Shown here: positions 1-13,423 of the stretch, piece by piece
Position numbering within the stretch: position 1 is the first letter of the stretch
Layout of the letters: every line of letters begins with the position of its first letter
Assembly: GCF_001187435.1 (NCBI RefSeq)
Contig: NZ_LFXA01000007.1
Location: 62,001-126,000, forward strand
Source of the DNA: Streptomyces caatingaensis
GTDB lineage: Bacteria; Actinomycetota; Actinomycetes; Streptomycetales; Streptomycetaceae
Length of the DNA stretch: 64,000 nucleotides
Direction: 5' to 3'
Position numbers and translations under genes: made by a program
The notes under the pieces: model-generated
What the model saw: the letters and a program-made list of their open reading frames with translations, nothing else
Databases searched by the model: none
Told to the model about the DNA's origin: nothing

Positions 1-2
1 CC

Positions 3-449
3 CTGGACGAGAAGGCGTGCCTGCCCGTCCAGAGCGTCAAGTCCGCCCGGGCGCTGGAGCGTTACGTGCTCGACCGCGCCCGGGGCACCCGGGCCTGGCT
101 CGGTGGCACCGGCTTCGTCGACGAACTCGGCGACGGCAGCGCGGTCCTGCGCCCGGCGGTCCACCAGCTCGCCTCCGCCGACGCCCCGCAGCTGGGCGCC
201 GAAGTGCCGTTCCCCTGCGTCTGGATCGCCCCCTGGAGCCGCGCGGACGGTGTCGCCCCGCTGCGCGACACCCTGGTGCTGACGGCCGTGACCGAGGACG
301 AGGAGCTCGTCGACGCCCTCGTCGCGGAGCCGACGATCAGCAACCTGTACCTGGGCGGCAGGGCCACCCACTGGCACCGCGCGGGCCTTCCGCACGACGG
401 CTACCTCGGCGAGTTCCTCATGCGCAGCAAGACGACGGTGCGCGCCTGA
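3..449 (+). CDS. C-terminal part of a dehydrogenase / acyl-CoA reductase-like protein (5' truncated)
   Basis: The frame is open from base 3 and stops at 447-449, so only the last 148 residues are inside the window. The tail contains a segment ISNLYLGG followed by PHDGYLGEFLMRSK close to the C terminus, which reminds me of the end of aldehyde-dehydrogenase or acyl-CoA-reductase type proteins in biosynthetic clusters. The catalytic core lies outside the window, so the family call is weak. It runs in the same direction as the carrier protein gene that starts 55 bp downstream and is probably part of the same cluster. A reductive step on a carrier-bound acyl chain would fit, but that is inference. 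Confidence 0.35.
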   Translation: MDEKACLPVQSVKSARALERYVLDRARGTRAWLGGTGFVDELGDGSAVLRPAVHQLASADAPQLGAEVPFPCVWIAPWSRADGVAPLRDTLVLTAVTEDEELVDALVAEPTISNLYLGGRATHWHRAGLPHDGYLGEFLMRSKTTVRA

Positions 450-504: not shown

Positions 505-867
505 ATGGACCCGCGTGCGGGCGATGCCCGGGAGGGCGCGACGGACCTGGTCCGGACGGTGTCCGAGCTCTGGTGCGAGGTGCTCGGACTCCCCTCGGTG
601 AACCCCTCGGACAACTTCTTCGACCTGGGCGGCCACTCGCTGCTGCTGCACACCGTGCGCGACGGGCTCCACCGCCGGCTCGGCCGCGACGTCCCCCTGG
701 TCGACCTCTTCCAGCACCCCACGGTCCGCTCCCTGGCCGCCCACCTCGCCGCCGCCGCGTCCGGCGGCCCGGCGGACACCGGCGGGGGGCGGCTGGCCCG
801 GCTGGAGGCCCGGCGCACGGGCCGCCGCGTCGGCGGCCGCGACCACGAGGAGACGGAGGAATGGTGA
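505..867 (+). CDS. Free-standing acyl/peptidyl carrier protein
   Basis: A 120-residue protein with one phosphopantetheine-attachment domain. The motif DNFFDLGGHSLLL lies at about residues 36-48 and Ser45 is the expected attachment site. The last 35 residues are an Arg/Gly-rich tail without a recognisable fold. ATG 505 follows a GGAGG at 496-500, which supports this start. Its stop overlaps the start of the ketosynthase gene (ATG 861, TGA 865-867), implying coupled translation. It probably carries the acyl chain handed to or from the single PKS module downstream. The GGHS form occurs in both NRPS and PKS carriers, so I cannot say whether the starter is an amino acid or an acyl group. Confidence 0.85.
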   Translation: MDPRAGDAREGATDLVRTVSELWCEVLGLPSVNPSDNFFDLGGHSLLLHTVRDGLHRRLGRDVPLVDLFQHPTVRSLAAHLAAAASGGPADTGGGRLARLEARRTGRRVGGRDHEETEEW

Positions 868-3608
868 CCGCCCGAGACACCGCCCCGCCCCGCCCCGGCG
901 CGGCCGCCGACGGGCCCGGACGGGCCGTGGCCGTGATCGGCATGGCCTGCCGCTTCCCCGGCGCCGACGGCCCCGACGCGTTCTGGCGCAACCTCGCCGA
1001 CGGCGTCGAGTCCGTGACCCGGTTCCCCCCGGAACCGGTCCCCGGCGCACGCGCCGACGGCGCCACCGCGACCTACACGCCCGCCCGGGGACTCCTGGAC
1101 CGGCCCGAGTGGTTCGACGCCGGCTTCTTCGGCTGCTCGCCGCGCGAGGCACGGCTGTTGAGCCCCCAGCACCGGCTCTTCCTCGAATGCGCCGCCGAGG
1201 CGCTGGAGGACGCCGGCCAGGACCCGGCACGCCCCACGGACGTCTTCGGCGTCTACGGCGGCGGCACCACCACCGACTACGCGCGCATCCTCCACGAACG
1301 CCGCGCCGAACTGCCGTCCGTCACCGACCTGGACATCCTCCTCGGCACCGCGCCCGACTACCTGGTCTCCCGCACCGCCTACAAACTCGGCCTCACCGGG
1401 CCCGCCGTGACCGTCCAGACCGCCTGCTCCACCGCGCTGGTCGCCGTCCACCTCGCCGTCCAGGGGCTGCTCGCCGGCGACTGCGACGTCGCCCTGGCCG
1501 GCGCCGCCGCCGTCCACGTCCCGGACAAGAAGAGCCAGTTCACCCACGGTGGCATCCTCTCCGCCCGCGGGCAGTGCCGCGCCTTCGACGCCTCGGCCGA
1601 CGGAACCGTCGGCGGCGACGGCGTCGGCATCGTCGTCCTCAAACGGCTCGCCGACGCCGAGGCGGACGGCGACCACGTCCTCGCCGTCCTGCGCGGCACC
1701 GCCGTCAACAACGACGGCGGCGCCCGCGTCGGCTACACCGCGCCCGGCACCGACGGACAGGCCGCCGTGGTCCGCGAGGCGCAGCTCGTCGCCGGCGTCG
1801 ACGCCGGAACCATCGGCTACGTCGAGGCGCACGGCACCGCCACCCCCCTCGGCGACCCCATCGAACTCACCGCGCTCACCCGGGCGTTCCGCCAGGACAC
1901 CGACCGCACCGGCTTCTGCTGGATCGGCTCGGTGAAGACCAACATCGGGCACACCGACGCGGCCGCCGGGGCCGCCGGGCTCATCAAGGCGGTGCTCGCC
2001 CTGCGGCACCGCCGCATCCCGCCCAGCCTCCACTTCACCGAGCCGAACCCGCAGTTCGACTTCGCCGCCAGCCCCTTCCGGGTCGCCACCCGGCTCGTCC
2101 CGTGGGAGGCGCCGGACGGACCGCGGCGCGCGGCGGTCAGCGCGTTCGGCATCGGCGGAACCAACGCCCACGCCGTCCTGGAGGAGGCCCCGCCGCGTCC
2201 GCCGTCCCCCCGGCCCGCGGCCCCGGAACAGCTCCTGGTGCTCTCCGCCGCGTCGCCCCGGGCCCTGGACGCCGCCGTGCACCGGCTCGCGGACCGGCTC
2301 GCGTCGGCCGCACCGGACACCGAACTCGCCGACGTCGCCTGGACGTTGCAGACCGGGCGCCGTGAGCACCCGTACCGTGCCGTCGCCGTCGCGCGCGGCG
2401 CCGCCGACGCCGTCCGGGTGCTCACCGGCCCCGCCGGCGGCCGTCCGGCGGTCCCCGCCGCGCCCGCCGTGGAGGGCCGTCCCACCGCCTTCCTCTTCTC
2501 CGGTGCCCCCGGGCGGCGGCCCGATCCCGCCCGGTGCGCGGCCGAACCCGCCTACCGGCAGGCCGTCGAGGAGTGCTGCGCGGCCGCGGGCCTGTCCGCC
2601 GCCGACCGCGACGCGGTGCTGCACGGCCGCCCGGCGGCCGGCTCCGGCCCGGTGGCGGTGGCCGCCTTCGCCCGGGAGTACGCCACCGCCATGACCTGGA
2701 TCCGGTGGGGCGTCAGGCCGGACGCGGTGCTCTGCTCGGGACCGGGGACACCCGCCGCCATGGCCGTCGCCAAGGTCCTGCCCCTGGCCGACGCGCTGCG
2801 CCTGGCCCTCGGCCACGCCCGCGCCGGGGAGACGGCCGGCGACGACCCGGCGGCCTGGGCCGCCCTGGTGGCCCGCACCGCCCTGCGCCCGCCCAGAGTC
2901 CCGGTGTTCTCCCCGGCGTCGGGCCGCCGGCTCACCGCCGAGGAGGCCGCCGACCCCGGACAGTGGGCCCGCGCAGCGGCCCGGCCGGACCCCGCCCTCG
3001 TCCGCCGCGCCCTGGCGGAGCTGCTCGCCGACCCGCACCGCGTCCTCCTGGAGGTCTCGCCGGACCGCGCGCTGCTCGCCGCGGCCCGGACGCTGCCGCA
3101 GGAGCCCGCCGCCGGCCACCTGCTGCTCCCGGAGGGCGACGGGGACGGCGAGGACGACGGCGGGCAGGGCCACGCCGCGGCGCTCGCCGTGCTCGGCCGG
3201 CTCTGGGCCGGCGGCGCGGCCGTGCGCTGGAAGCACGTCCACGGCGGCGAGCGGCGTTCGCTGACACCCCTGCCCACCTACCCCTTCCAGCGCGAACGTT
3301 TCCTCGTGGAACCCGCCGCACCCGCCGCTCCCGCCGCCACGGAACCCACCGGGCCGGCGGAGGAGGCGCCGCACGCCCGCAAGGACGTCCTGACCACCCT
3401 CCTCCGTCTCTACGCCGAACTCCTCGGCCTGCCCGACGTCGGACCGGACGACGACTTCTTCGACCTCGGCGGGGACTCCCTCGTCGCCGCGCGGCTCGCC
3501 GAACGCGTCCGCGAGCTCTACCCCGTGGACATCGACGGCCTCACCGTCTACGAGGCCGGCGCGCCCGCCGAACTCGCCGCGGCCGTCGAGGAACTGATGG
3601 CCGTCTGA
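861..3608 (+). CDS. Single PKS module KS-AT(degenerate)-ACP
   Basis: A 915-residue modular polyketide synthase protein. The ketosynthase spans about residues 20-450 and is intact: Cys189 in TACSTA, His324 in EAHGTAT and His364 in NIGHTDA. An acyltransferase-like region follows (about 540-800). Where active ATs have GHSxG, this one reads CSGPG (about 625-629), and the segment with the catalytic His is missing, so it should not load extender units. A post-AT linker (LPTYPFQRERF) and a C-terminal ACP follow, with Ser873 in FFDLGGDSL. No KR, DH, ER or TE is present. The start ATG 861 overlaps the carrier gene. A trans-acting AT, or a KS doing one condensation with a ready-made unit, would be needed. 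Product length and extender unit are unknown. Confidence 0.9.
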   Translation: MVTARDTAPPRPGAAADGPGRAVAVIGMACRFPGADGPDAFWRNLADGVESVTRFPPEPVPGARADGATATYTPARGLLDRPEWFDAGFFGCSPREARLLSPQHRLFLECAAEALEDAGQDPARPTDVFGVYGGGTTTDYARILHERRAELPSVTDLDILLGTAPDYLVSRTAYKLGLTGPAVTVQTACSTALVAVHLAVQGLLAGDCDVALAGAAAVHVPDKKSQFTHGGILSARGQCRAFDASADGTVGGDGVGIVVLKRLADAEADGDHVLAVLRGTAVNNDGGARVGYTAPGTDGQAAVVREAQLVAGVDAGTIGYVEAHGTATPLGDPIELTALTRAFRQDTDRTGFCWIGSVKTNIGHTDAAAGAAGLIKAVLALRHRRIPPSLHFTEPNPQFDFAASPFRVATRLVPWEAPDGPRRAAVSAFGIGGTNAHAVLEEAPPRPPSPRPAAPEQLLVLSAASPRALDAAVHRLADRLASAAPDTELADVAWTLQTGRREHPYRAVAVARGAADAVRVLTGPAGGRPAVPAAPAVEGRPTAFLFSGAPGRRPDPARCAAEPAYRQAVEECCAAAGLSAADRDAVLHGRPAAGSGPVAVAAFAREYATAMTWIRWGVRPDAVLCSGPGTPAAMAVAKVLPLADALRLALGHARAGETAGDDPAAWAALVARTALRPPRVPVFSPASGRRLTAEEAADPGQWARAAARPDPALVRRALAELLADPHRVLLEVSPDRALLAAARTLPQEPAAGHLLLPEGDGDGEDDGGQGHAAALAVLGRLWAGGAAVRWKHVHGGERRSLTPLPTYPFQRERFLVEPAAPAAPAATEPTGPAEEAPHARKDVLTTLLRLYAELLGLPDVGPDDDFFDLGGDSLVAARLAERVRELYPVDIDGLTVYEAGAPAELAAAVEELMAV

Positions 3609-3656: not shown

Positions 3657-4439
3657 ATGCCCTCAAGAACAGGCCCGCCGCGCCGGCTGGCCAGCCGCCG
3701 CGAACGCCCCGAGGCCGCGCTCGACCTGTACGTCTTCCCGCACGCGGGCGGTTCGGCCGGCGAGTACCTGATGTGGTCCGACCACCTGCCCGACCTCCAG
3801 GTCCGGGGCGTCCAGTACGCCGGCCGGGCGTCGCGCCGCGCCGAGCCCGCCCACACCGACGTCGCGGCACTGGTCGACGACCTGGCCGGCCACCTCCCCC
3901 TCGACCGCCCGGCCGTCTTCCTCGGGCACAGCTTCGGCGCCCTCGTGGCCTACGAGACGGCCCGCGCCCTGCGCGCGCTGGGCCGCCCGGAGCCGCGCCA
4001 CCTGCTGCTGTCCTCCTTCCGGCCGCCGCACACCGTCACGGCGGCCCGGCACGGCGGACCGCTGCACCTCCTGAACGACGAGGAGCTGGCCACGGCCGCC
4101 GAACGCCTCTGGGGCCGGCTCCCGGACCAGGTGCGGACCGACCCCGGAGTGCGTGCGCTGGCCCTCGCCCCGCTCCGCGCCGACCTCACCGCCCTGGAGA
4201 CGTACCGGTACGTCCCCGGGCCGCCGCTCGACGTACCGGCCACCCTCGTCCGGGGCGCCGCCGAGGCGCTGGACCTCGACGGGTGGACCGGGCACCTCGC
4301 CCACATCACGGGCCGGCACACCCTTCCCGGCGGCCACTTCCACTTCCGCGGCGACCCCGCGCCCCTGCTGGACCTGATCCGGGACGTGACCCGCCGGACC
4401 GCACCACGGACGGGAGCCACCGCACGATGCGCCACATGA
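3657..4439 (+). CDS. Type II thioesterase (alpha/beta hydrolase)
   Basis: A 260-residue serine hydrolase of the external thioesterase family found beside PKS and NRPS genes. The nucleophile sits in GHSFGAL (about residue 89). The oxyanion segment FPHAGGSAGEY lies near the N terminus and the catalytic His is in GGHFHF near the end. Such enzymes hydrolyse misloaded or stalled acyl groups from carrier domains. They may also release product when, as here, the PKS has no integrated TE. ATG 3657 is preceded by a GAGGAAG. Its stop overlaps the start of the aldo/keto reductase, which places it in the same operon as the KS module. Confidence 0.88.
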   Translation: MPSRTGPPRRLASRRERPEAALDLYVFPHAGGSAGEYLMWSDHLPDLQVRGVQYAGRASRRAEPAHTDVAALVDDLAGHLPLDRPAVFLGHSFGALVAYETARALRALGRPEPRHLLLSSFRPPHTVTAARHGGPLHLLNDEELATAAERLWGRLPDQVRTDPGVRALALAPLRADLTALETYRYVPGPPLDVPATLVRGAAEALDLDGWTGHLAHITGRHTLPGGHFHFRGDPAPLLDLIRDVTRRTAPRTGATARCAT

Positions 4440-5482
4440 CCTTCGGCCGGCGCTGCGGACTGAGGGTCTCCGCCTACGCGCTGGGCACCGTCAACTTCGG
4501 CACCGGCTGGGGCGGCGGCACCGAACGGGCCGAGGCCCGGCGGATCCTGGACCGCTTCGCCGATGCCGGCGGCACCCTCCTCGACACCGCCGACTGCTAC
4601 CACGACGGGGAAGCCGAGACCTTCCTCGGCGCGTTCCTCGCCGGCCGCCGCGACCGCTTCACCCTGGCCACCAAGTTCTCCTTCGGCTGGGGGAAGGAGT
4701 CCTCCGGCGTCCTCACCACCGGCAACGCCCGCGGCAACATGATCCGTTCGCTGGAGGGCAGCCTCCGCCGGCTCGGCACCGACCACGTCGACCTGTACTG
4801 GGTGCACTTCCCCGACACCGTCACCCCCGTCGAGGAGGTCGTGGCGGGCCTCGACGACCTGGTGCGCGCCGGGAAGATCCGCTACGCAGGGCTGTCCAAC
4901 TTCGCCGCCTGGCAGGTCTCCCGCGCCGTCACCCTGGCCGAGGTCCACGGCCGCGCCCCGGTGGCCGGCATCCAGACCGAGTACAGCCTCGTGGAGCGCA
5001 CCGCCGACCGCGAACTGCTGCCCATGGCCGAGGAACTGGGCCTCGGGGTGGCCCAATGGGGGCCGCTGGGCGGGGGGCTGCTGACCGGCAAGTACCGTCA
5101 GGGCTCCGCGGGCCGGCTCACCGACTGGAACGGCCGCGTGATGCGCCACGAGTCCGACGCCCACCGCACGGCCGTCCTCGACGAGGTCCTCGCCGTCGCC
5201 CGGGAGACCGGCGCCCCGCCCGCACAGGTCGCCGTGGCCTGGCTCAACTCCCGGGCCCGCACGGCCGGCACGGCCCACGTCCCCGTCATCGGCCCGCGCA
5301 CCGTCGAGCAGCTCGACGGCTACCTCGCCGCCCTCGACCTGACCCTCGACGCCGCGCACCTCCGGCGCCTCGACGAGGTCAGCGCCGTCCCCCTGGGCTC
5401 ACCGCACGATCTCGTGCGCGGGGCCCGCGACAACCTGCTGGGCGGCGACGCCGCCCGCTTCGAAGGAGCCCGACGCGCGTGA
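4427..5482 (+). CDS. Aldo/keto reductase
   Basis: A 351-residue NADPH-dependent oxidoreductase with the TIM-barrel aldo/keto reductase fold. The catalytic tetrad is visible: Asp and Tyr in DTADCYHDGE, Lys in LATKFSFGWG and His in WVHFPD. The C-terminal cofactor-binding part contains VIGPRTVEQL. Likely role: reduction of a carbonyl in the cluster product or intermediate, since the PKS module has no KR domain. The ATG at 4427 is 13 bp before the thioesterase stop, and a second in-frame ATG at 4436 is an alternative. The stop overlaps the GTG of the next gene. The substrate cannot be read from the sequence. Confidence 0.88.
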   Translation: MRHMTFGRRCGLRVSAYALGTVNFGTGWGGGTERAEARRILDRFADAGGTLLDTADCYHDGEAETFLGAFLAGRRDRFTLATKFSFGWGKESSGVLTTGNARGNMIRSLEGSLRRLGTDHVDLYWVHFPDTVTPVEEVVAGLDDLVRAGKIRYAGLSNFAAWQVSRAVTLAEVHGRAPVAGIQTEYSLVERTADRELLPMAEELGLGVAQWGPLGGGLLTGKYRQGSAGRLTDWNGRVMRHESDAHRTAVLDEVLAVARETGAPPAQVAVAWLNSRARTAGTAHVPVIGPRTVEQLDGYLAALDLTLDAAHLRRLDEVSAVPLGSPHDLVRGARDNLLGGDAARFEGARRA

Positions 5483-5883
5483 ACGAACTGGCCGGAGTGT
5501 GGACGCTGGTGTCCTTCCACACCCTCGACGAGCAGGGCGGCGTCCGCCCCGGACCCCTCGGCGACCACCCCGCCGGGCTGCTCTTCTACAGCGAGGACGG
5601 CCACGTCGCCGTCCACATGATGCCCGCCGGCGGGCCGCCCGACTACCTCAGTTACGCCGGCACGTGGCGGCGCGAGGGCGACCGCGTCGTGCACACCCTC
5701 ACCGTCGCCGCCCGGGCCGAATGGCTCGGCACCGAACAGACCCGCTCACTGACCCTGGACGGCGACCTCCTCACCCTCACCGGCAGCTCGCTCTCGACCA
5801 CCGACCGGCGCGTCCTGGTCTGGCGACGGCTCACCGGCACCGCGCCCCTCGTCCCCGACCCCCGCACAGGAGAACCGGCATGA
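5479..5883 (+). CDS. Lipocalin-like domain protein
   Basis: A small (134-residue) beta-rich protein that begins ELAGVWTLVSF and contains a LLFYSEDGHVAVHMM strand pair, resembling the lipocalin-like family often found in actinomycete biosynthetic clusters. There is no signal peptide, so it should be cytosolic. It could bind a hydrophobic intermediate or act as a small cyclase-like or isomerase-like enzyme. No catalytic residues can be assigned. GTG 5479 overlaps the previous stop, and its own TGA overlaps ATG 5880, so it is translationally locked into the operon. Confidence 0.7.
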   Translation: MNELAGVWTLVSFHTLDEQGGVRPGPLGDHPAGLLFYSEDGHVAVHMMPAGGPPDYLSYAGTWRREGDRVVHTLTVAARAEWLGTEQTRSLTLDGDLLTLTGSSLSTTDRRVLVWRRLTGTAPLVPDPRTGEPA

Positions 5884-6719
5884 ACGACACGGCACACACG
5901 ACGGACCGCCCCGCCTGGACGCCCGGGGACATCGACCCCGACCGGCCCAGCGTGGCGCGGATGTACGACTACTACGTGGGCGGCGAGCACAACCTGGACT
6001 CCGACCGGCGGACCGCGCGCACCGCGCTCGACGCGCTGCCCGGCCTCGACATCGCCATCCGCGCCAACCGGGCGTTCCTGCGCCGCGCCGTGCGCACCGT
6101 CGCCGAGAGCGGCATCACCCAGTTCCTGGACATCGGCTCCGGCATCCCCACCGCGGACGGCGGCAACGTCCACGACGTGGCCCGTCGCGTCCACCCCGGC
6201 GCCCGCGTCGTCTACGTCGACCACGACCCGGTGGCCGTCGCCCGCGGCCGCGAGCTGCTCGCCGGCGACCCCGACGCCACCGCCGTCGCCGGGGACTTCC
6301 TCCGGCCGCGGGACATCCTGGGCCACCCGGAGGTGCGCGCGCACATCGACTTCGACCGCCCCGTGGGGCTGCTCCTCGTCGCCGTCCTCCACTTCATCGA
6401 GGACGACGACGACCCCTGGGAGAAGGTCGCCCTGCTGCGCGACGCCCTCGCCCCGGGCAGCCACCTGATCCTCTCCCACGCCTATGTCGAGGCCACCCCC
6501 GAGGCCGGCCCGTCGAGCGGACAACTCCAGGACGTCTACCGGGCGTTCGGGGCCCGGCTGCAGAACCGCGGGCCCGCCGCGACCGGACGGTTCTTCGAGG
6601 GCTTCCGGCTGCTGGAGCCCGGCCTGACCGGCATGGCCGACTGGCGCCCCGACGCCGACGCCGGGAACGGGCACCCGATGACCCGCTCGGGCGTCGTCGG
6701 CGTGGCCGTCAAGGACTGA
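5880..6719 (+). CDS. SAM-dependent methyltransferase, DUF574 type
   Basis: A 279-residue protein of the actinomycete-specific S-adenosyl methyltransferase family (DUF574). Family hallmarks are visible: SVARMYDYYVGGEHN near the N terminus, QFLDIGSGIPT as the SAM-binding loop and VVYVDHDPVAV as the acidic-loop strand. Family members are very common in Streptomyces and few have a known substrate. Here the gene sits inside the biosynthetic operon with 4-bp overlaps on its 5' side, which makes a tailoring methylation possible, but a general role is not excluded. Start ATG 5880 is fixed by the overlap with the lipocalin-like gene. Confidence 0.85.
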   Translation: MNDTAHTTDRPAWTPGDIDPDRPSVARMYDYYVGGEHNLDSDRRTARTALDALPGLDIAIRANRAFLRRAVRTVAESGITQFLDIGSGIPTADGGNVHDVARRVHPGARVVYVDHDPVAVARGRELLAGDPDATAVAGDFLRPRDILGHPEVRAHIDFDRPVGLLLVAVLHFIEDDDDPWEKVALLRDALAPGSHLILSHAYVEATPEAGPSSGQLQDVYRAFGARLQNRGPAATGRFFEGFRLLEPGLTGMADWRPDADAGNGHPMTRSGVVGVAVKD

Positions 6720-6723
6720 CGGG

Positions 6724-7596
6724 ATGCACCCGTTCGCCCTGCACCGGTGGAACGCCGCCCGCCTGGGCGGACGGGACGTCGTCGTCGCCGGCTACCCGGC
6801 CTCCGGAGCCGCGCTCGTCGGCAACATCCTGACCGAGCTCGGCTTCGGGCACCTCGACCCCTACACCGAGACCGTTCTCCCCGACGGCACCTCGGCCGTC
6901 GTCGAGGACCGGATGACCTACCGCCGCCGGCTCGCCGCCACCGCCGCCGAGGACCGGCGGCACGGCGTCCACCGCTCCGCCGACGGCCTCCGGTTCGTCA
7001 AGAACCACCTCCACCCGGACGCCTTCGACGCCGGCCGGCTCGCGGGCGCCGTCCTGCTGGTCCGCGACCCCAGGGACGCCATCCACTCCGCGTACCACTG
7101 GTTCCGCGGCTTCGCGGAGCGCTGGCGGCTCGGCGACAACGGGCGCGGCACCTTCGCCGCGTTCCTCGACGGCCCCGTCGTCAACGGCGAACCGCCCGTC
7201 GAGGGCTGGACCCGCTTCTGCGCCGCCTGGCTCGACGCCCTGCCCGCCTTCCGCCGCTCCGCCGTCGTCCGCTTCGAGGACCTCAAGAGCGACCCGGCGG
7301 CGGCGACGGCCGCCCTGCTGCGCGCTCTCGGGCAGGAACGCGCCCCGCGGGAGATCGCCCGCGCCGTGCGCGCCAGTTCGTACGAGGCCATGCGCGCCCA
7401 CGAGACCGCGGCCATGGCCGAGGACGGGGACCGGGGCGCGGACGGGCCCCGGATCATGCGCCGGGGACAGGTCGGGGAGTGGCGCGAGTGGATCGGCGAC
7501 CCGGCCCTCGCCGCCCGCTTCCGCGACCCGGACCTCGCGGCCACCGCCGCCCGCTTCGGCTACCGGCTCTCCACCAGTGAAGGGACCGCACCGTGA
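6724..7596 (+). CDS. Sulfotransferase-fold protein, candidate phosphoramidate transferase
   Basis: A 290-residue protein with the sulfotransferase layout. The 5' phosphosulfate loop region reads GYPASGAAL (residues 23-31). The 3'-phosphate pair is Arg114...Ser122 in VRDPRDAIHS, with the usual eight-residue spacing, and an RRGQVGEWREW block near 240-250 matches the RKGxxGDW motif. Cytosolic sulfotransferases have Lys in the loop (PKSGTT). Here it is Ala26, and the two Thr are Ala29 and Ala30. The 3'-phosphonucleotide grip is kept while the sulfuryl-contact residues are lost. Because the operon makes a 3'-phospho-CDP-amidate, a PAPS look-alike, I infer that it may transfer phosphoramidate rather than sulfate. 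Ordinary sulfation remains the alternative. An AAGGA lies upstream of ATG 6724. Confidence 0.75.
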   Translation: MHPFALHRWNAARLGGRDVVVAGYPASGAALVGNILTELGFGHLDPYTETVLPDGTSAVVEDRMTYRRRLAATAAEDRRHGVHRSADGLRFVKNHLHPDAFDAGRLAGAVLLVRDPRDAIHSAYHWFRGFAERWRLGDNGRGTFAAFLDGPVVNGEPPVEGWTRFCAAWLDALPAFRRSAVVRFEDLKSDPAAATAALLRALGQERAPREIARAVRASSYEAMRAHETAAMAEDGDRGADGPRIMRRGQVGEWREWIGDPALAARFRDPDLAATAARFGYRLSTSEGTAP

Positions 7597-8375
7597 CCAC
7601 GACCTTCGACTACTCGCCCTACGCGGTGGCCTACCGCGAACGGGCCGAGTACGTGCCCGGCGTCGTCCGCGCCCTGCTGCGGACGGCCGCCGTGCGCCCC
7701 GGCGACCTCGTGTGCGACATGGGGGCGGGCTCGGCCCATCTCACCGCCCCGCTCCTGGAACACGGGCTGCGGGTGGACGCGGTCGAACCGACGCCCGCCA
7801 TGCGGGCGGTGGGGGAGCGGCGCACCGCCGGCGCCCCGGGCGTCACCTGGTACGAGGGGACCGGCGAGGCGTCCGGCCGGCCGGCGGGTCACTACCGGCT
7901 CGTCACCTTCGGCTCCTCCTTCGACCGCACGGACCGGCCGGCCGCCCTGCGGGAGACCGCCCGCATCCTGGCGCCCGGCGGCCACTTCGCCTGCCTGTGG
8001 AACCACCGCGACCTGGACGACCCGCTCCAGGCCCGCGTCGAGGAGCTCATCCACGAGCGCGTCCCGGGCTACGGCTACGGCGTCCGGCGGACCGACCAGC
8101 GGCCCGTCATCGAGGAGAGCGGCCTCTTCGCCCCGCCGGTCGCCCTCTCCGGCCGGCAGGTCTTCCGGCTGCCCGCCGCGGCCTGGGTCCGGGCCTGGGC
8201 CTCCCACGCCACGCTCGGCGAACAGGCCGGGCCGCGCTTTGCCGAGGTGTGCGACGCCATCGGCGACCTGGTGCGCCGCGAGACGGGCGAGTGGATCGAC
8301 GTCCCGTACACCACCCGCGCCTGGACCGCCCGCCGCCTCGACCCGCGCGGCACCGACGCGGACGCGCGGCGATGA
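7593..8375 (+). CDS. Class I SAM-dependent methyltransferase
   Basis: A 260-residue methyltransferase with motif I as VCDMGAGSAHLT (about residues 41-52), a motif II acidic strand VDAVEPTPAMR, and a motif IV/V-like YRLVTFGSSFDR. The N-terminal FDYSPYAVAYRERAEYVP resembles methyltransferases of the type-11 family. GTG 7593 overlaps the sulfotransferase-like stop, and its TGA overlaps the glutamine kinase ATG. In C. jejuni, methyltransferase genes lie next to the glutamine-kinase cassette and are linked to the O-methyl group of methyl phosphoramidate. The position here makes O-methylation of a phosphoramidate a reasonable inference, although methylation of the carbon skeleton is equally possible. 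Confidence 0.82.
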   Translation: MTTTFDYSPYAVAYRERAEYVPGVVRALLRTAAVRPGDLVCDMGAGSAHLTAPLLEHGLRVDAVEPTPAMRAVGERRTAGAPGVTWYEGTGEASGRPAGHYRLVTFGSSFDRTDRPAALRETARILAPGGHFACLWNHRDLDDPLQARVEELIHERVPGYGYGVRRTDQRPVIEESGLFAPPVALSGRQVFRLPAAAWVRAWASHATLGEQAGPRFAEVCDAIGDLVRRETGEWIDVPYTTRAWTARRLDPRGTDADARR

Positions 8376-10720
8376 GCGGCCCCGCCGTCCGCCTCGGGAC
8401 CAAGGCCGAGACCCTGGACCGCCTGGCCCCGCTGCTCACCACCGCACGCGTCCTGCCCCGCGCCTCCTTCACCCTCCGGCAGTGGCGGGCGTCCCGCGCG
8501 CGCCTCCTCGACGAGGTGCTGGCCCGGCCGTGGGCCGCCGGACCGCTCATCGTCCGCAGCAGCGCGGTCACCGAGGACACCGCCGCGGGATCCCAGGCGG
8601 GCCGCTTCCGTTCCCTCCCCGGCCGCCGCGGCCGGGCGGCCGTCGCCGACGCCGTCGACGAGGTCTTCGCCTCCTACGACGCGGAACGCCCCGAGGACCA
8701 GGTGCTCGTGCAGCCCGAGCTGACGGGGATCCGGCTCGGCGGCGTGGCCCACTCCCACGACCCCAGCGGCGGCGCGCCCTACACCGTCGTCAACTGGAGC
8801 GAGAGCGACCGCAGCGGGGCCGTCACGGGCGGCTCCGAGGACGGCCTGTGGCTCTCCTGCTCCGCCGCCGGGGCGCCGCCCGGCGCCGACCGCCACCCGC
8901 TGGTCCCCCGTGTCCGCGCCCTGCTGGCCGAGATCGCCGGACTCACCGGGGAGCCCCGGCTGGACATCGAGTTCGCCGTGGCGGCGGACGGCGACCTGGT
9001 CCTCTTCCAGGCCCGGCCCCTGGCCCGGCCCGCCGCGCCGGTGCCCGTCGCGGCCCACCGGGCGGCCGTCGCGGCGGCCGCGGACGCAGTGGACCGCGCC
9101 GCACGGGCCGGGGCCCCGCTGCCGGGCACCCGCCCCCTGTTCGGGGTGATGCCCGACTGGAACCCGGCCGAGATGATCGGCCTGCGCCCCCGGCCCCTGG
9201 CCCTGTCCCTGTACCGGCTCCTGATCACCGACTCGGTCTGGGCCCGCGCCCGCCACCGCCACGGCTACCGCGACCTGCGCGGCACCCCGCTGCTCGTGGA
9301 CTTCGCGGGCCTGCCCTACATCGACGTACGGGCCAGCGTCGCCTCCTTCCTCCCCGCCGACCTCCCCGAACCGCTCGCCGCCCGCCTGGCCGGCCACTGG
9401 CTCGGCCTGCTCCGGGCCGCGCCCGACCTGCACGACAAGATCGAGTCCCGTGTCGTGCTCTCCGCCCACGGCTTCCGCACCCGGGAACGGCTGGCCGCCC
9501 TCGCCCCCGCCGGCTTCGCACCCGGCGAGCGCGCCCTGCTGCGGGAGTCCCTGCGCCGGCTGACGGACCGTCTGGTGAGCGGCCCGCTCCGGGAGGCCGA
9601 CCCGGCCCGGCTCGGCCGGCCGGACGCGGCCCGCCGGCCCGCCGTCCACGCCGACGGCTGCGCCGCCGACCGCCCCGGCTGCTGCGGGGCCTCCCTCGCC
9701 GCCCGCCTGGCCGCCTGCGCGGAGGGCGGGACGCTGCCCTTCGCCGTCCTGGCCCGCGCCGCGTTCGTCGCCACCGAGTTCCTCGACGACCTCGTCGCCG
9801 AGGGCGCCCTCACGCCCGCGGACAAGGCCGCGTTCGTCGGCGGCATCGGCCTGGTCGCCGGTGAACTGCGGCACGACTTCCACGCGTTGGAGCGCGAGAC
9901 GTTCCTCAAGCGCTACGGCCACCTCCGCCCCGGCACCTACGACATCCTCTCGCCCCGCTACGACGAGGCGCCCGAGCGGTACTTCGACTGGGCCGCCCGC
10001 CGCCCGGACCCCGCCGAGCGCCCGGTGTTCCGGCCCGGCCCCGCGCTGCTGCGCGCCGTCGACGCCCTGACCGCCCGCGAGGGGTTCTCCTTCGGCGCGG
10101 CCCGGCTGCTGGAGTTCATGGCCGAGGCCCTGCGCGGCCGCGAGCACGGCAAGTTCGCCTTCACCTCCGTGCTCAGCGACGTCCTCACCGACCTCCGCGG
10201 CCTCGGGGAGCGGCACGGCCTCGACGCCGACGCGATGTCCTACGTGGACCTCCCCACCGTCGCCGCGCTACCCGCCGGCCGCCGTGCCGCCGCCGCGGTC
10301 CTCCGGGACGCCGCCGACCGGGGCCGCGCGGCCCACGCCGTCACCCGCTCCCTCTGCCTGCCGCCCCTGGTCACCGACGGGCGGGACGCCTGGAGCTTCG
10401 TCGTGCCGCAGGCCCGCCCCACCTTCGTCACCCAGGGCCGGGTGCTGGCCCCCGTCGCCGACATCGACGCCGGTGATCCCCCCGAGGGCGCCATCGCCCT
10501 GGTGACCAGCGCCGACCCCGGCTACGACTGGCTCTTCGCCCGCGGCGTCGCCGGCCTGGTCACGGCCTTCGGCGGCGCCAACTCCCACATGGCCACCCGG
10601 GCGCTGGAGCTCGGCGTCCCCGCGGTGATCGGCGCCGGAGAACCGCTGTTCCACCGGTGGTCGAAGGCGGCCGCCCTCGACATCGACGCGGCCGCCGGCC
10701 TGGTGGCGGTGGTCTCGTGA
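8372..10720 (+). CDS. L-glutamine kinase-like enzyme (PEP-synthase/PPDK superfamily)
   Basis: A 782-residue two-domain enzyme. The N-terminal ATP-grasp half has LIVRSSAVTEDTAAGSQAG (about 60-80) and the nucleotide-binding end DIEFAVAADGDLVLFQARP. The C-terminal swivelling phosphohistidine domain has GGANSHMATRALELGVPAVIG, with His739 as the expected phosphocarrier. There is no PEP/pyruvate-binding barrel, so it is not a true PEP synthase. Length, domain order and His position match C. jejuni Cj1418, which phosphorylates the amide nitrogen of L-glutamine with ATP. The three genes downstream encode the matching next steps, which makes this assignment much stronger than homology alone. A rifampicin-phosphotransferase-like role is the main alternative. 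ATG 8372 overlaps the previous stop. Confidence 0.85.
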   Translation: MSGPAVRLGTKAETLDRLAPLLTTARVLPRASFTLRQWRASRARLLDEVLARPWAAGPLIVRSSAVTEDTAAGSQAGRFRSLPGRRGRAAVADAVDEVFASYDAERPEDQVLVQPELTGIRLGGVAHSHDPSGGAPYTVVNWSESDRSGAVTGGSEDGLWLSCSAAGAPPGADRHPLVPRVRALLAEIAGLTGEPRLDIEFAVAADGDLVLFQARPLARPAAPVPVAAHRAAVAAAADAVDRAARAGAPLPGTRPLFGVMPDWNPAEMIGLRPRPLALSLYRLLITDSVWARARHRHGYRDLRGTPLLVDFAGLPYIDVRASVASFLPADLPEPLAARLAGHWLGLLRAAPDLHDKIESRVVLSAHGFRTRERLAALAPAGFAPGERALLRESLRRLTDRLVSGPLREADPARLGRPDAARRPAVHADGCAADRPGCCGASLAARLAACAEGGTLPFAVLARAAFVATEFLDDLVAEGALTPADKAAFVGGIGLVAGELRHDFHALERETFLKRYGHLRPGTYDILSPRYDEAPERYFDWAARRPDPAERPVFRPGPALLRAVDALTAREGFSFGAARLLEFMAEALRGREHGKFAFTSVLSDVLTDLRGLGERHGLDADAMSYVDLPTVAALPAGRRAAAAVLRDAADRGRAAHAVTRSLCLPPLVTDGRDAWSFVVPQARPTFVTQGRVLAPVADIDAGDPPEGAIALVTSADPGYDWLFARGVAGLVTAFGGANSHMATRALELGVPAVIGAGEPLFHRWSKAAALDIDAAAGLVAVVS

Positions 10721-11325
10721 CCCTCGTCGGCGTCACCCAGCGCTCCCTGCCGCCCGACCGGTCCGGCGAGCGCCGCTACGCCCTGGACGCCCGCTGGTTC
10801 CCCTTCCTCGCCGCCTGCGGGCTCACCCCCGTCCCCCTCCCCAACGACGCGGACCTCGCCGTGCGCACCGCCTCGGCTGCGGGCCTGCGCGGCGTGCTGC
10901 TCACCGGCGGCGACGACCTCGCCGAGTACGGCGGGCCGACGCCCGAGCGCGACGCCGCCGAACTGCGGCTCCTGCGCTGGGCGCTGGACGCCGGCCTGCC
11001 GGTGCTCGGCGTGTGCCGGGGCATGCAGGTGATCCTCCGGGCGCACGGTGCCGCACTCGTCCCCGTCGACGGCCACGTGGCCGTCCGGCACACCGTCGTC
11101 ACCGCGGGCGGCGGACGCCGCGAGGTCAACAGCTACCACCGCATGGCCGCCCGCTCGGTGCCCGCGCCCCTGGAGGCCACCGCCCGCTGCGGGGACGTGA
11201 TCGAAGCGGTGCGCCACCGGACCGCCCGCGTCGCGGGCGTCATGTGGCACCCCGAGCGGGAACCGGTCCCCCACCCCGAGGACGTCCGCGCCGTGCGCGG
11301 CCTGCTGGGCGGCGGCGACCGGTGA
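10717..11325 (+). CDS. Class I glutamine amidotransferase-like gamma-glutamyl-CDP-amidate hydrolase
   Basis: A 202-residue stand-alone class I amidotransferase fold. The nucleophile Cys100 is in LGVCRGMQ, the catalytic pair is His178/Glu180 in MWHPERE, and an oxyanion-type LLTGGDDLAEYGG lies near residues 60-73. In the C. jejuni pathway the homologous Cj1417 cleaves the gamma-glutamyl bond of L-glutamyl-CDP-amidate, releasing glutamate and cytidine diphosphoramidate. That step fits the neighbours on both sides. Generic annotation would call it a gamma-glutamyl-GABA hydrolase. There is no synthetase partner to use released ammonia. The GTG start at 10717 and stop both overlap the flanking genes by 4 bp. 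Confidence 0.83.
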   Translation: MTLVGVTQRSLPPDRSGERRYALDARWFPFLAACGLTPVPLPNDADLAVRTASAAGLRGVLLTGGDDLAEYGGPTPERDAAELRLLRWALDAGLPVLGVCRGMQVILRAHGAALVPVDGHVAVRHTVVTAGGGRREVNSYHRMAARSVPAPLEATARCGDVIEAVRHRTARVAGVMWHPEREPVPHPEDVRAVRGLLGGGDR

Positions 11326-12059
11326 AGGCGCTGGTCCTGGCCGCGGGCCGCGGTTCGCGGCTGATGCCCTTCACCGCCGACCGCCCCAAGTGCCTGGTGG
11401 AGATCGGCGGGAAGACCCTGCTGCGACGCCACGTCGAGGCCCTCACCGCGGCCGGGGCCGAGGAGGTCGGCGTCGTCGCCGGCTGGCGCGCCGAGGCGTT
11501 CGACGGCCTCGGCCCCAGGGTGTTCGTCAACCCCCGCTGGGCCGGCACGTCCATGGTGGAATCCCTCGCCGCGGCCGACCTCTGGCTGCGGGCGGGCCCG
11601 GTGCTCGTCGCCTACGGGGACATCGTCTACGCGCCCGCCACGGCCCGCCGGCTCGCGGCCGCCGCGGCCGGGCTCGCCGTCGCCTACGACCCCCACTGGC
11701 TCGCCCTGTGGAGCAGCCGCTTCGCCGACCCGCTCGACGACGCCGAGACGTTCGTCCACCGGGACGGCCGCCTCCTCGACATCGGGGGCCGCCCCGGCTC
11801 GGCGGCGGAGGTCCAGGGCCAGTACATGGGGCTGCTGCGGATCACCCCGCCGGCCTGGGGGACGATCCGCCGGGCGCGCGCCGCGGACCCGCGCACCGCC
11901 GCACTCGACATGACGGGACTGCTCCGGCACCTCGTCCGCCGCAACCTGCTGGACGTCGCCACGGTCGCCGCGGACGGCCCGTGGTGCGAGTTCGACCATC
12001 CGTCCGACATCGCCGTCGGCCGCCGGGTGCTGCGCCTGCTCGACGAGGCCGGCGCGTGA
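11322..12059 (+). CDS. CTP:phosphoglutamine cytidylyltransferase-like nucleotidyltransferase
   Basis: A 245-residue nucleotidyltransferase of the LicC/GlmU-N type. The signature is ALVLAAGRGSRLMPFT at residues 3-18, followed by RPKCLVEIGG. A metal-binding Asp is in VAYGDIVYAP, and a second acidic site occurs in WCEFDHPSDIAVG near the end. By order and size it corresponds to C. jejuni Cj1416, which joins CTP and N-phospho-L-glutamine to give L-glutamyl-CDP-amidate. A phosphocholine or sugar-phosphate cytidylyltransferase is the alternative, but no choline kinase or sugar pathway gene is nearby. GTG 11322 overlaps the previous stop. Confidence 0.83.
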   Translation: MKALVLAAGRGSRLMPFTADRPKCLVEIGGKTLLRRHVEALTAAGAEEVGVVAGWRAEAFDGLGPRVFVNPRWAGTSMVESLAAADLWLRAGPVLVAYGDIVYAPATARRLAAAAAGLAVAYDPHWLALWSSRFADPLDDAETFVHRDGRLLDIGGRPGSAAEVQGQYMGLLRITPPAWGTIRRARAADPRTAALDMTGLLRHLVRRNLLDVATVAADGPWCEFDHPSDIAVGRRVLRLLDEAGA

Positions 12060-12577
12060 GGCCGCCGGGGCCCGGGGTGCTGTGGATCACGGGCCTGTCC
12101 GGGGCGGGGAAGAGCACCGTGGCGGGAATCCTGCGGGACAGGCTCGCCGCCGGGGGCGTCCTGCCCGTCCTGCTGGACGGGGACCGGCTGCGGGCGACCC
12201 TTCCGGTGCGGCCCGGGCACCGGGAGGAGGACCGCCGCCGCCTCGCCCGCTACTACGGAGCCCTGGCCGGTGAACTGGCGGCCCAGGGACACCTGGTGAT
12301 CTGCGCGACGGTCTCCCTCTTCCACGAGGCCCACGCCCGCAACCGCCGCCGACTCCCCGGCTACTACGAGGTGTTGCTCCGCGTCCCCCTCGACGACCTG
12401 CGCCAGCGCCGCGACCGCGCCTCCCTCTACGGAGCGCCCGACACGCGCGACGTGGTCGGCCTCGGCACGCCGGCCGAATTCCCCCTCGCCCCCGACCTGG
12501 TGGTGGACAACTGCGGCGACACGACCGCCGAGGACGCCGCGGAGGCGATCCTGCGGGGGTGGGCGGGGCGGGGGTGA
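12056..12577 (+). CDS. Cytidine diphosphoramidate kinase-like (APS-kinase family)
   Basis: A 173-residue P-loop kinase resembling adenylylsulfate kinase. Walker A is GLSGAGKST at residues 13-21, followed by VLLDGDRLRATL, and a later ICATVSLFHEAHARNRR segment. It ends DLVVDNCGDTT, a typical APS-kinase-like finish. In C. jejuni the relative Cj1415 phosphorylates the 3'-OH of cytidine diphosphoramidate, producing the activated donor. No ATP sulfurylase gene is present in the visible cluster, and the three upstream genes supply exactly that substrate, so a role in PAPS synthesis is less likely. It is the last gene of the operon. Start GTG 12056 overlaps the cytidylyltransferase stop. Confidence 0.83.
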   Translation: MRPPGPGVLWITGLSGAGKSTVAGILRDRLAAGGVLPVLLDGDRLRATLPVRPGHREEDRRRLARYYGALAGELAAQGHLVICATVSLFHEAHARNRRRLPGYYEVLLRVPLDDLRQRRDRASLYGAPDTRDVVGLGTPAEFPLAPDLVVDNCGDTTAEDAAEAILRGWAGRG

Positions 12578-12604: not shown

Positions 12605-13423
12605 CTACCCGGCGAGCAGTTCGCCGTCGACGACGGTGACGGCCTTGCCGGTCAGCAGGGTGCGGTCGCCGCGCAGGGCCACCCGTACCAGGCCCCGCCG
12701 GGCGCCGCCCTGGAGGCCCGTCAGTTCGGTGCGGCCCAGGCGGGCCGACCAGAACGGGGCGAGGGCGGTGTGGGCGCTGCCGGTGACCGGGTCCTCGTCG
12801 ATGCCCGCGTTGGGGAAGAAGCCGCGGGAGACGAAGTCGTACCCGCGGGACGGGTCCTCGGCGGGGGCGGTGACGATGACGCCCCGGCGGGACCGTTCGG
12901 AGAGGGCCCGCAGGTCGGGGGCGAGGGCGTGGACGGTCTTCTCGTCGGCCAGTTCGACCAGGAGGTCGCCGAGGTGCTCGCCGGTGTCGTGCACGCCGAG
13001 CGGCCGGGTGCCGAGGCAGTCGGCCAGCCCCTCCGGGGCGGCGACCGGGGTGAGCGGCGAGGTCGGGAAGTCCAGGGTCACCGAGCCGTCGTCCGCCACC
13101 GTCGTGCCCAGGGCCCCGCAGCGGGCGGCGAACCGCACAGGGCCCGACGCGGCCCCCGTCGTGTGCAGCACGTGCGCCGTGGCGAGCGTGGCGTGCCCGC
13201 ACATGTCCACCTCGGTCGTCGGGGTGAACCAGCGCAGCGCCCAGTCCGCCTCCGCGGCCGGGCCGAGCGGATGGGCGAACGCGGTCTCGGACAGGTTGAC
13301 CTCGGCGGCGACCCGCTGGAGCCACCCGTCGTCGGGAAAGCCCTCCGGGCCGAAGAGCAGGACCCCCGCGGGGTTGCCGGCGAAGGGGCGGTCGGTGAAG
13401 GCGTCGACGATTCGGATGCGCAT
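12605..13423 (-). CDS. PhzF-family isomerase/epimerase-like protein
   Basis: A 272-residue protein of the phenazine-biosynthesis PhzF fold (two related alpha/beta barrels, diaminopimelate-epimerase-like). It opens RIRIVDAFTDRPFAGNPAGV, has the catalytic-Glu segment NLSETAF near residue 45 and a second-half GIDEDPVTGSAH block that binds an anion. Most members act on unknown substrates and no phenazine genes are present. It lies convergent to the phosphoramidate operon with a 27-bp gap and is probably a separate housekeeping gene. Its stop region abuts the operon end, which sets the cluster border. Confidence 0.88.
   Translation of the reverse strand: MRIRIVDAFTDRPFAGNPAGVLLFGPEGFPDDGWLQRVAAEVNLSETAFAHPLGPAAEADWALRWFTPTTEVDMCGHATLATAHVLHTTGAASGPVRFAARCGALGTTVADDGSVTLDFPTSPLTPVAAPEGLADCLGTRPLGVHDTGEHLGDLLVELADEKTVHALAPDLRALSERSRRGVIVTAPAEDPSRGYDFVSRGFFPNAGIDEDPVTGSAHTALAPFWSARLGRTELTGLQGGARRGLVRVALRGDRTLLTGKAVTVVDGELLAG

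Follow-up and report, generated by a model that had tools for sequence, protein, structure and literature searches.

A predicted phosphoramidate donor cassette and its sulfotransferase-fold partner in Streptomyces caatingaensis

What would enzymes of the kind that decorate the Campylobacter jejuni capsule be doing among the natural-product genes of a streptomycete? The question is raised by a 64,000-nucleotide stretch of the 7.06-Mb genome of Streptomyces caatingaensis (G000:C7:62001-126000; "the window" below means the whole of this stretch). Genes of four families lie contiguous at 8372-12577, with predicted functions as a kinase, a class-I amidotransferase-fold hydrolase (GAT), a nucleotidyltransferase (NT) and an adenosine 5'-phosphosulfate (APS)-kinase-like protein (APSK), and it is very probable that together they constitute a phosphoramidate donor cassette. 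A sulfotransferase-fold protein is encoded just upstream, at 6724-7596. We place at about 0.7 the probability that the cassette makes 3'-phospho-cytidine diphosphate (CDP)-amidate and that this protein draws on it to phosphoramidate a small molecule. The computed results cover gene content, families, catalytic residues, linkage and the loss of the sulfuryl-loop base. The cassette belongs to a kind already known, here met in a new setting; what is new and testable is the sulfotransferase-fold partner without the sulfuryl-loop base.

Phosphoramidate transfer in C. jejuni still looks open in a 2025 paper, which says that its oligosaccharides will enable work on decoration pathways still to be elucidated (PMC12409886). 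With a sulfotransferase-fold candidate that bears a clear sequence signature, the transfer step becomes directly testable. In the literature, O-methyl phosphoramidate sugars are described as identified only in Campylobacter at the time of writing (PMC6429109), and a 2022 review speaks of a 'C. jejuni-specific glutamine kinase' (PMC9561416), whereas at least 543 stretches in our collection-wide scan encode a relative of this kinase. Open-licence PMC texts yielded no account of such a cassette from Streptomyces, of a sulfotransferase-like enzyme that transfers phosphoramidate, or of a phosphoramidated phenazine, absence from these texts being weak evidence in each case; the string 'phosph' is absent from the text of a phenazine review in the portion available (PMC11477647).

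The predicted donor cassette

Together with a methyltransferase gene (MT), the cassette genes form a plus-strand run of five in the order MT-kinase-GAT-NT-APSK, with a 4-bp overlap at every one of the four junctions. The first-pass annotation of this DNA had given the order and the overlaps exactly (MT, a pyruvate phosphate dikinase (PPDK)-like kinase, a class-I amidotransferase, a LicC/MobA-like nucleotidyltransferase and an APS-kinase-like gene), and its residue numbers also hold, His739 in the kinase and Cys100, His178 and Glu180 in GAT. It had overlooked the Sulfotransfer_1 gene at 6724-7596, which overlaps MT by 4 bp and which we think is the most informative part of the cluster. From that gene the run extends 5' as far back as 3657, with gaps of at most 4 bp.

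The window and C. jejuni have a fold set in common: a phosphoenolpyruvate synthase (PEPS)/PPDK-like glutamine kinase, a GATase hydrolase, a cytidylyltransferase and an APS-kinase-like kinase. In C. jejuni these are Cj1415-Cj1418, with a methyltransferase alongside (PMC6429109, PMC3907429, PMC10971088). Unlike the C. jejuni capsule locus, the window cassette lies in a natural-product setting and has an adjoining sulfotransferase-fold gene.

The kinase scores 710.5 bits against NCBIfam NF004508 (cut-off 501) over residues 5-781 of 782, while the next model, PEP synthase, reaches 51 bits. NF004508 (PRK05849 type) bears the NCBIfam name 'hypothetical protein'; we take the model to cover Cj1418. 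A tree places 26 kinases of the cassette type, among them the window's, in a single clade (100/100) that excludes the 15 outgroup proteins; the branch between the two measures 2.32 changes per column, and the tree carries long-branch warnings. Ten outgroup proteins were scanned, and seven of them lie above an NCBIfam cut-off (four Rph, two PEP synthase and one RedH). Clustering with rifampicin phosphotransferases or PEP synthases, the outcome set beforehand as evidence against a glutamine-kinase-type identity, did not occur; on the NF004508 score, the outgroup scan and the separate clade, identity as an Rph or a PEP synthase is rejected. His739, R62 and the DWNP motif at 262-265 are each present in all 84 kinases aligned, the window's and those of the 83 loci described below. 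The kinase is predicted to phosphorylate the amide nitrogen of L-glutamine. Relatives are encoded in 14 plasmid records at E <= 1e-20, none of them actinobacterial. A divergent kinase of the family, 39% identical, was seen in Streptomyces G236 (L023:4909-12927); it lacks accompanying homologs of GAT, NT and APSK, and the genes in front of it resemble, by eye, Mur ligases and an alanine racemase.

The best NCBIfam model for GAT is gamma-glutamyl-CDP-amidate hydrolase, NF045546, at 96.2 bits (E 2.5e-27; next model 1.1e-12). Matches of 86-137 bits to this model occur in 23 of 25 other genomes, each time coinciding in position with the cassette GAT; G620, among the 23, shows a further match elsewhere (91 bits), and the two genomes with none, G610 and G612, have loci without GAT. 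NT resembles the CTP:phosphocholine cytidylyltransferase 1jyk (5.5e-9) and MurU-like enzymes. APSK passes the Pfam APS_kinase cut-off (86.7 versus 21.1 bits). The catalytic residues are invariant: C100, H178 and E180 of GAT in 80/80, K23, D100 and D225 of NT each in 78/78, and the P-loop K19 of APSK in 74/74. These counts include the window and leave out one NT without a closed open reading frame (ORF) and the GAT of L093, a weak match on the opposite strand (52 bits, with 60 as the limit).

The genome holds two APS_kinase matches, the cassette copy and one of 191 bits on contig C2, and a role in sulfate assimilation is unlikely for the former, since the stronger copy sits elsewhere. In Streptomyces sp. 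F001 (L024), kinase, GAT and NT are present while an APS-kinase homolog is missing; a neighbouring gene (L024:13403-14311, minus strand) reads by eye like a cytidylate-kinase-type protein, perhaps substituting for it.

The kinase was found above cut-off in 1 of 61 relatives (its own genome), in 5 of 246 genomes of the genus (its own included) and, among 346 sampled from the phylum, in 1 (again its own). From the collection-wide scan the best 80 stretches, drawn from many phyla, were kept; these, with four from the genus search and less one duplicate (L029 = L024), make up 83 kinase loci, several of which end at contig ends. Homologs are present of GAT in 80, NT in 78, APSK in 73 and MT in 66; counting only homologs no more than 3 kb from the kinase, the figures are 80, 78, 66 and 64, respectively. 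The complete set of kinase, GAT, NT and APSK is found in 71 of the 83, and with MT as well in 63. The four-gene association exceeds chance.

It could be asked whether four enzymes of these folds might act on another amide or phosphate and so produce a different CDP-activated group. Several findings count against a phosphoramidate donor at this point. The likeness to Cj1415-Cj1418 is known at the level of folds; GAT falls below the equivalog cut-off of NF045546 (GCDPHdlase; 96.2 versus 250 bits), a cut-off reached in 0 of the 25 other genomes either; and APSK is likewise under the narrow models TIGR00455 (90.4 versus 138.7) and NF004041 (120.7 versus 127). A different group is nevertheless quite improbable in view of the repeated association of the four folds, the invariance of their catalytic residues and the identity of GAT's best model. 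GAT may work like gamma-glutamyl-CDP-amidate hydrolase while not filed in that equivalog. The proposal already made in the first-pass annotation, of an activated phosphoramidate for a small molecule, is supported by the kinase clade, by the best GAT model and by the biosynthetic setting, the narrow equivalog cut-offs excepted.

A sulfotransferase-fold partner

If the cassette provides the donor, which protein transfers it? The product of the 6724-7596 gene scores 65.3 bits against PF00685 (cut-off 22), and no other gene of the genome matches this family at E <= 1e-4. Nine actinobacterial genomes (G000, G093, G182, G220 and G605-G609) hold 14 PF00685 genes, six of them within 10 kb of the kinase, where 0.03 would be expected (p ~4e-13). 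The count includes G220, which has kinase, GAT and NT only, and omits G236, which has the kinase of L023 without the cassette, as well as 11 further genomes of the search that were chosen with knowledge of their loci; it is free of the circularity affecting profiles trained on the loci. With the protein itself as query, a match was obtained in five of eight genomes at E <= 1e-15, one apiece and all beside the cassette. A Streptomyces locus, L025:2808-4928 (minus strand), encodes a 706-aa protein in which a ketosynthase-like domain is fused to a sulfotransferase-fold domain.

An AlphaFold model of the protein (predicted local distance difference test, pLDDT, 84.2, from a 6-sequence alignment) matches SULT2B1b with Z 18.9 and a root-mean-square deviation (rmsd) of 2.8, 233 residues being aligned over 1-282 of 290. 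It shares with the SULT family the fold, the KTH-type His motif and the 3'-phosphate motifs RDPRDxxxS and RRGxxGEW. The segments KNH, LLVRDPRDAIHS and MRRGQVGEW are kept, and in the alignment with mouse estrogen sulfotransferase KTH, R-D-x-x-D-x-x-x-S and R-x-G-x-x-G-x-W align. The Lys of the 5'-loop, by contrast, is lost (GYPASGAA), that of PKSG aligning with Gly. In SULTs this Lys contacts the sulfuryl group, and the His is the catalytic base.

Whereas the SULT family carries Lys or Arg in the 5'-phosphosulfate loop, the proteins whose genes are linked to the cassette carry Ala, Gly or Ser: Ala in the window protein and Gly or Ser in 6/6 aligned cassette-linked relatives, making 7/7 non-basic, against Lys or Arg in 19/19 readable non-cassette controls. 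Twenty control sulfotransferases had been taken, and L174 was dropped, as it belongs by contig and position to the cassette locus of L033 and matches only from beyond the loop onwards. The loops of L030, L056, L058 and L063 also appear non-basic by eye; these four, both L053 proteins and that of L033 lie outside the seven.

The cassette-linked sulfotransferase-fold proteins are probably phosphoramidate transferases, which would use 3'-phospho-CDP-amidate as 3'-phosphoadenosine 5'-phosphosulfate (PAPS) is used. Alternatively, 6724-7596 could encode an ordinary PAPS-dependent sulfotransferase, the product being sulfated and also phosphoramidated by an unrecognised transferase. Its clear PF00685 membership, its extensive alignment with the SULT fold and the retention of the catalytic-type His and the 3'-phosphate motifs would suit such an enzyme, and PAPS should be available owing to the strong APS_kinase gene elsewhere in the genome. 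This explanation is, however, unlikely, as it leaves unaccounted for a loop base that is gone from all seven of the aligned cassette-linked proteins and present in all 19 controls, and close homologs that stand only beside the cassette across eight genomes; moreover, the gene run shows no other transferase candidate.

Beyond the actinobacteria, other loci contain a second group of sulfotransferase-superfamily genes, with a GRSG loop and of the Sulfotransfer_3 type, beside the cassette in 18 of the 83 (by BLAST clustering, with Pfam run on one member). A model of this group (pLDDT 79.7) matches TPST2 with Z 14.3 and rmsd 5.9 over 263 residues. Profiles of both groups detect an ORF in 31 of the 83 loci at E <= 1e-8 and in 36 at E <= 1e-3, compared with 0 of 20 control regions, namely the surroundings of other GATase-type matches, for which 20 of the 25 genomes searched with NF045546 were used; the comparison is partly circular, the profiles having been trained on cassette loci. 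In 12 loci an independent Pfam profile match coincides with the known sulfotransferase-type ORF. This check covered 30 chosen genomes, 17 of which were already known to have such an ORF and two more weakly, and it measures no enrichment.

A number of observations speak against the transferase assignment or restrict its reach. Outside the loop, the motifs of the seven cassette-linked proteins are largely kept, but L088 has Ala for Ser and a changed last motif, L037 also deviates in the last motif, and L084 lacks the Lys that precedes the His. The actinobacterial loci L024, L027 and L071 are without a sulfotransferase homolog. Of 11 GRSG-group members read, with a pattern allowing Arg or Ser, 10 retain Arg in the loop, so the lost base is not general. 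By the profiles, 47 of the 83 loci have no sulfotransferase-type ORF even at E <= 1e-3, and other transferases must therefore exist; Pfam's Sulfotransfer_3 model adds two of those 47, L040 and L060. Finally, the characterised C. jejuni transferases, Cj1421 and Cj1422, may be of another kind; their genes are named as transferases, with mutants, in PMC3907429.

A proposed pathway and its parallel with sulfation

All substrates and all reactions in the following scheme are inferred, and their order follows a review. As in the C. jejuni pathway, the kinase would first phosphorylate the amide nitrogen of L-glutamine. The cytidylyltransferase would then form gamma-glutamyl-CDP-amidate, from which the hydrolase would remove glutamate to leave CDP-amidate, and the APS-kinase-like enzyme would add a 3'-phosphate. 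The 6724-7596 protein would bind the resulting 3'-phospho-CDP-amidate as a sulfotransferase binds PAPS and move the phosphoramidate to a hydroxyl group, releasing 3',5'-cytidine bisphosphate, and the adjoining methyltransferase would O-methylate the phosphoramidate. The likeliest acceptor would be a reduced phenazine carboxylate (hydroxymethylphenazine), produced by an EhpF-like ligase and a reductase, perhaps with an aldo-keto reductase.

It is attractive to compare this scheme with sulfation. Glutamine kinase, cytidylyltransferase and hydrolase would replace ATP sulfurylase, an APS-kinase homolog would add the 3'-phosphate, sulfotransferase-superfamily enzymes would serve as the transferases and CysQ-type phosphatases would recycle the by-product. 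Inositol_P-family phosphatases are encoded in 8 of the 83 loci, five of them between GAT and NT (Pfam was run on one). The family is presumably that of CysQ, and such phosphatases would suit the recycling of a nucleoside 3',5'-bisphosphate. A general bacterial phosphoramidation system built like sulfation, with reduced-phenazine phosphoramidate esters in Streptomyces and Kibdelosporangium, is a speculative extension that we regard as rather doubtful; if true, it would be an overlooked bacterial counterpart of sulfation.

The acceptor

No capsule gene was noticed among the genes around the cassette covered by general family scans. With a ligase, a reductase, carrier proteins, a ketosynthase (KS), a thioesterase and an aldo-keto reductase nearby, a small-molecule setting fits. 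The upstream AMP ligase matches EhpF, an ANL-type adenylating enzyme, over residues 37-385 of 385, and after this structure match EhpF replaced GriC/GriD as the nearest kin proposed for the ligase-reductase pair. The reductase matches general aldehyde dehydrogenases only in the PDB and is called EhpG-like by family and gene order. In the griseoluteic-acid Ehp operon, as in the window region, an EhpF-like ligase is followed by an aldehyde-dehydrogenase-family reductase (PMC3175449, PMC11278526), and ehpG is tabled beside ehpF in a Proteus phenazine operon (PMC11278526). Unlike the Ehp operon, the window's pair has no adjoining phenazine core genes.

A phenazine connection appears in Kibdelosporangium banguiense, where the same order, ligase-reductase-sulfotransferase-MT-kinase-GAT-NT-APSK, recurs at 53-64% identity; the ligase just upstream of the window and the reductase straddling its start are 64% and 61% identical to their L028 homologs. 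Ahead of the K. banguiense run stand genes of the PhzE, PhzD, PhzC, PhzA/B, PhzF and PhzG families (named by family and order), MetE and an Inositol_P phosphatase; behind it come an MFS transporter and a BBE oxidase with 45-52% identity to two genes that lie upstream of the window. In the window's own genome, contig C2 carries a complete phz core (434512-441157), which shares 51-64% identity with the Kibdelosporangium one. PhzA/B is above cut-off in two of nine genomes, the two whose loci hold the EhpF-like ligase. From the ligase and reductase, the Kibdelosporangium cluster and the genome's own phz genes, a reduced phenazine emerges as the likeliest acceptor, and hydroxymethyl- or formyl-phenazine is tentatively proposed, at somewhat less than an even chance. 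Against a phenazine stand the presence of PhzA/B with the cassette in only two genomes, the location of the window genome's phz genes on a contig other than the cassette's, to which they are unlinked, and the closer position of a type II polyketide/deoxysugar cluster.

That cluster suggests another acceptor: an aromatic polyketide of type II polyketide synthase (PKS) origin or its sugar, or a polyketide of the KS protein, in place of a phenazine. The same contig carries upstream a FabF-like KS with chain-length factor (CLF), acyl carrier protein (ACP) and ketoreductase (KR) neighbours by eye, deoxysugar genes and an EryCIII-like glycosyltransferase, and the C. jejuni acceptors are sugars (PMC3907429). 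The Kibdelosporangium phenazine cluster, however, shares with the window region the run from sulfotransferase to APSK, the ligase-reductase pair and the BBE oxidase. Beyond these it has weak matches to the Methyltransf_19 protein (38%) and the PhzF-like protein (34%) and none to the PKS or sugar genes, and phenazine genes occur in the window's genome as well. A polyketide or sugar acceptor is close to an even chance.

A third kind of product was set aside. EM2487, 1100-50 and K-563 are natural Streptomyces compounds with a phosphorus-nitrogen (P-N) bond (PMC6429109, PMC6434342); they have a nucleoside-cyclopentane-glycinamide structure, of which the window cluster shows no sign, and P-N nucleotides of the EM2487/K-563 type have a skeleton that does not suit these genes. 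If the phenazine assignment is true, a new class of P-N natural products would come within reach of genome mining.

Features of the region

The KS-ACP protein at 861-3608 (Table 1) had no acyltransferase family reported between its domains in a Pfam scan. The PhzF-like protein encoded behind the cassette, a possible member of the cluster, is 34% identical to Kibdelosporangium PhzF, compared with 60% for the C2 copy.

Table 1. Genes of the cassette region, in window coordinates; negative positions lie upstream of the window
Feature	Position	Strand	Support
L-glutamine-kinase-type PPDK/PEPS-fold kinase, 782 aa	8372..10720	+	NF004508, tree; Pfam PEP-utilizers and PPDK_N
Kinase domains: ATP-binding N domain, middle domain, phosphohistidine C domain with His739	8372..10720	+
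Class-I amidotransferase-fold hydrolase, predicted gamma-glutamyl-CDP-amidate hydrolase, 202 aa	10717..11325	+	PF07722 (Peptidase_C26), PF00117 (GATase)
MobA/LicC-like nucleotidyltransferase, predicted CTP:phosphoglutamine cytidylyltransferase, 245 aa	11322..12059	+	PF12804 (NTP_transf_3) 2.4e-20
APS-kinase-like kinase, predicted CDP-amidate 3'-kinase, 173 aa	12056..12577	+	PF01583 2.1e-24
S-adenosylmethionine (SAM) methyltransferase (MT), predicted phosphoramidate O-methylation	7593..8375	+	PF13649
Sulfotransferase-fold protein, predicted phosphoramidate transferase	6724..7596	+	PF00685 7.3e-18
Methyltransf_19 protein, same gene run	5880..6719	+	PF04672 3.5e-85
Lipocalin_5-like protein, same gene run	5479..5883	+	PF13924 1.4e-18
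Aldo-keto reductase, possible aldehyde-to-alcohol step	4427..5482	+	PF00248 5.1e-67
Thioesterase	3657..4439	+	PF00975 1.2e-29
KS-ACP protein	861..3608	+	PF00109, PF02801, PF00550
Carrier protein	505..867	+	PF00550 2.2e-18
Aldehyde-dehydrogenase-family reductase, 3' end	1..449, start at -930	+	PF00171 7.7e-16 for upstream part
EhpF-like AMP ligase (own genome, L010), directly 5' of reductase	-2087 to -930		EhpF 3l2k 1.8e-84
PhzC-PhzF family gene directly behind cassette	12605-13423	-

The type II PKS genes extend from L009:12411-19808 to L010:9239, some 10-27 kb upstream, with the KS identified by NCBIfam, the CLF, ACP, KR and cyclases by eye, and an oxygenase; the deoxysugar genes and the EryCIII-like glycosyltransferase lie in the same region. 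On contig C2, at 434512-443487 (L154, L155), the phenazine core is followed by genes that by eye are methyltransferase-like and FAD-hydroxylase-like. Upstream of the window, two response-regulator-like ORFs of 215 aa, L009:6673-7320 (minus strand) and L009:11325-11972 (plus strand), are identical over the 80 residues compared and point in opposite directions around halogenase/GG-reductase-like and antiporter-like genes, a possible inverted duplication.

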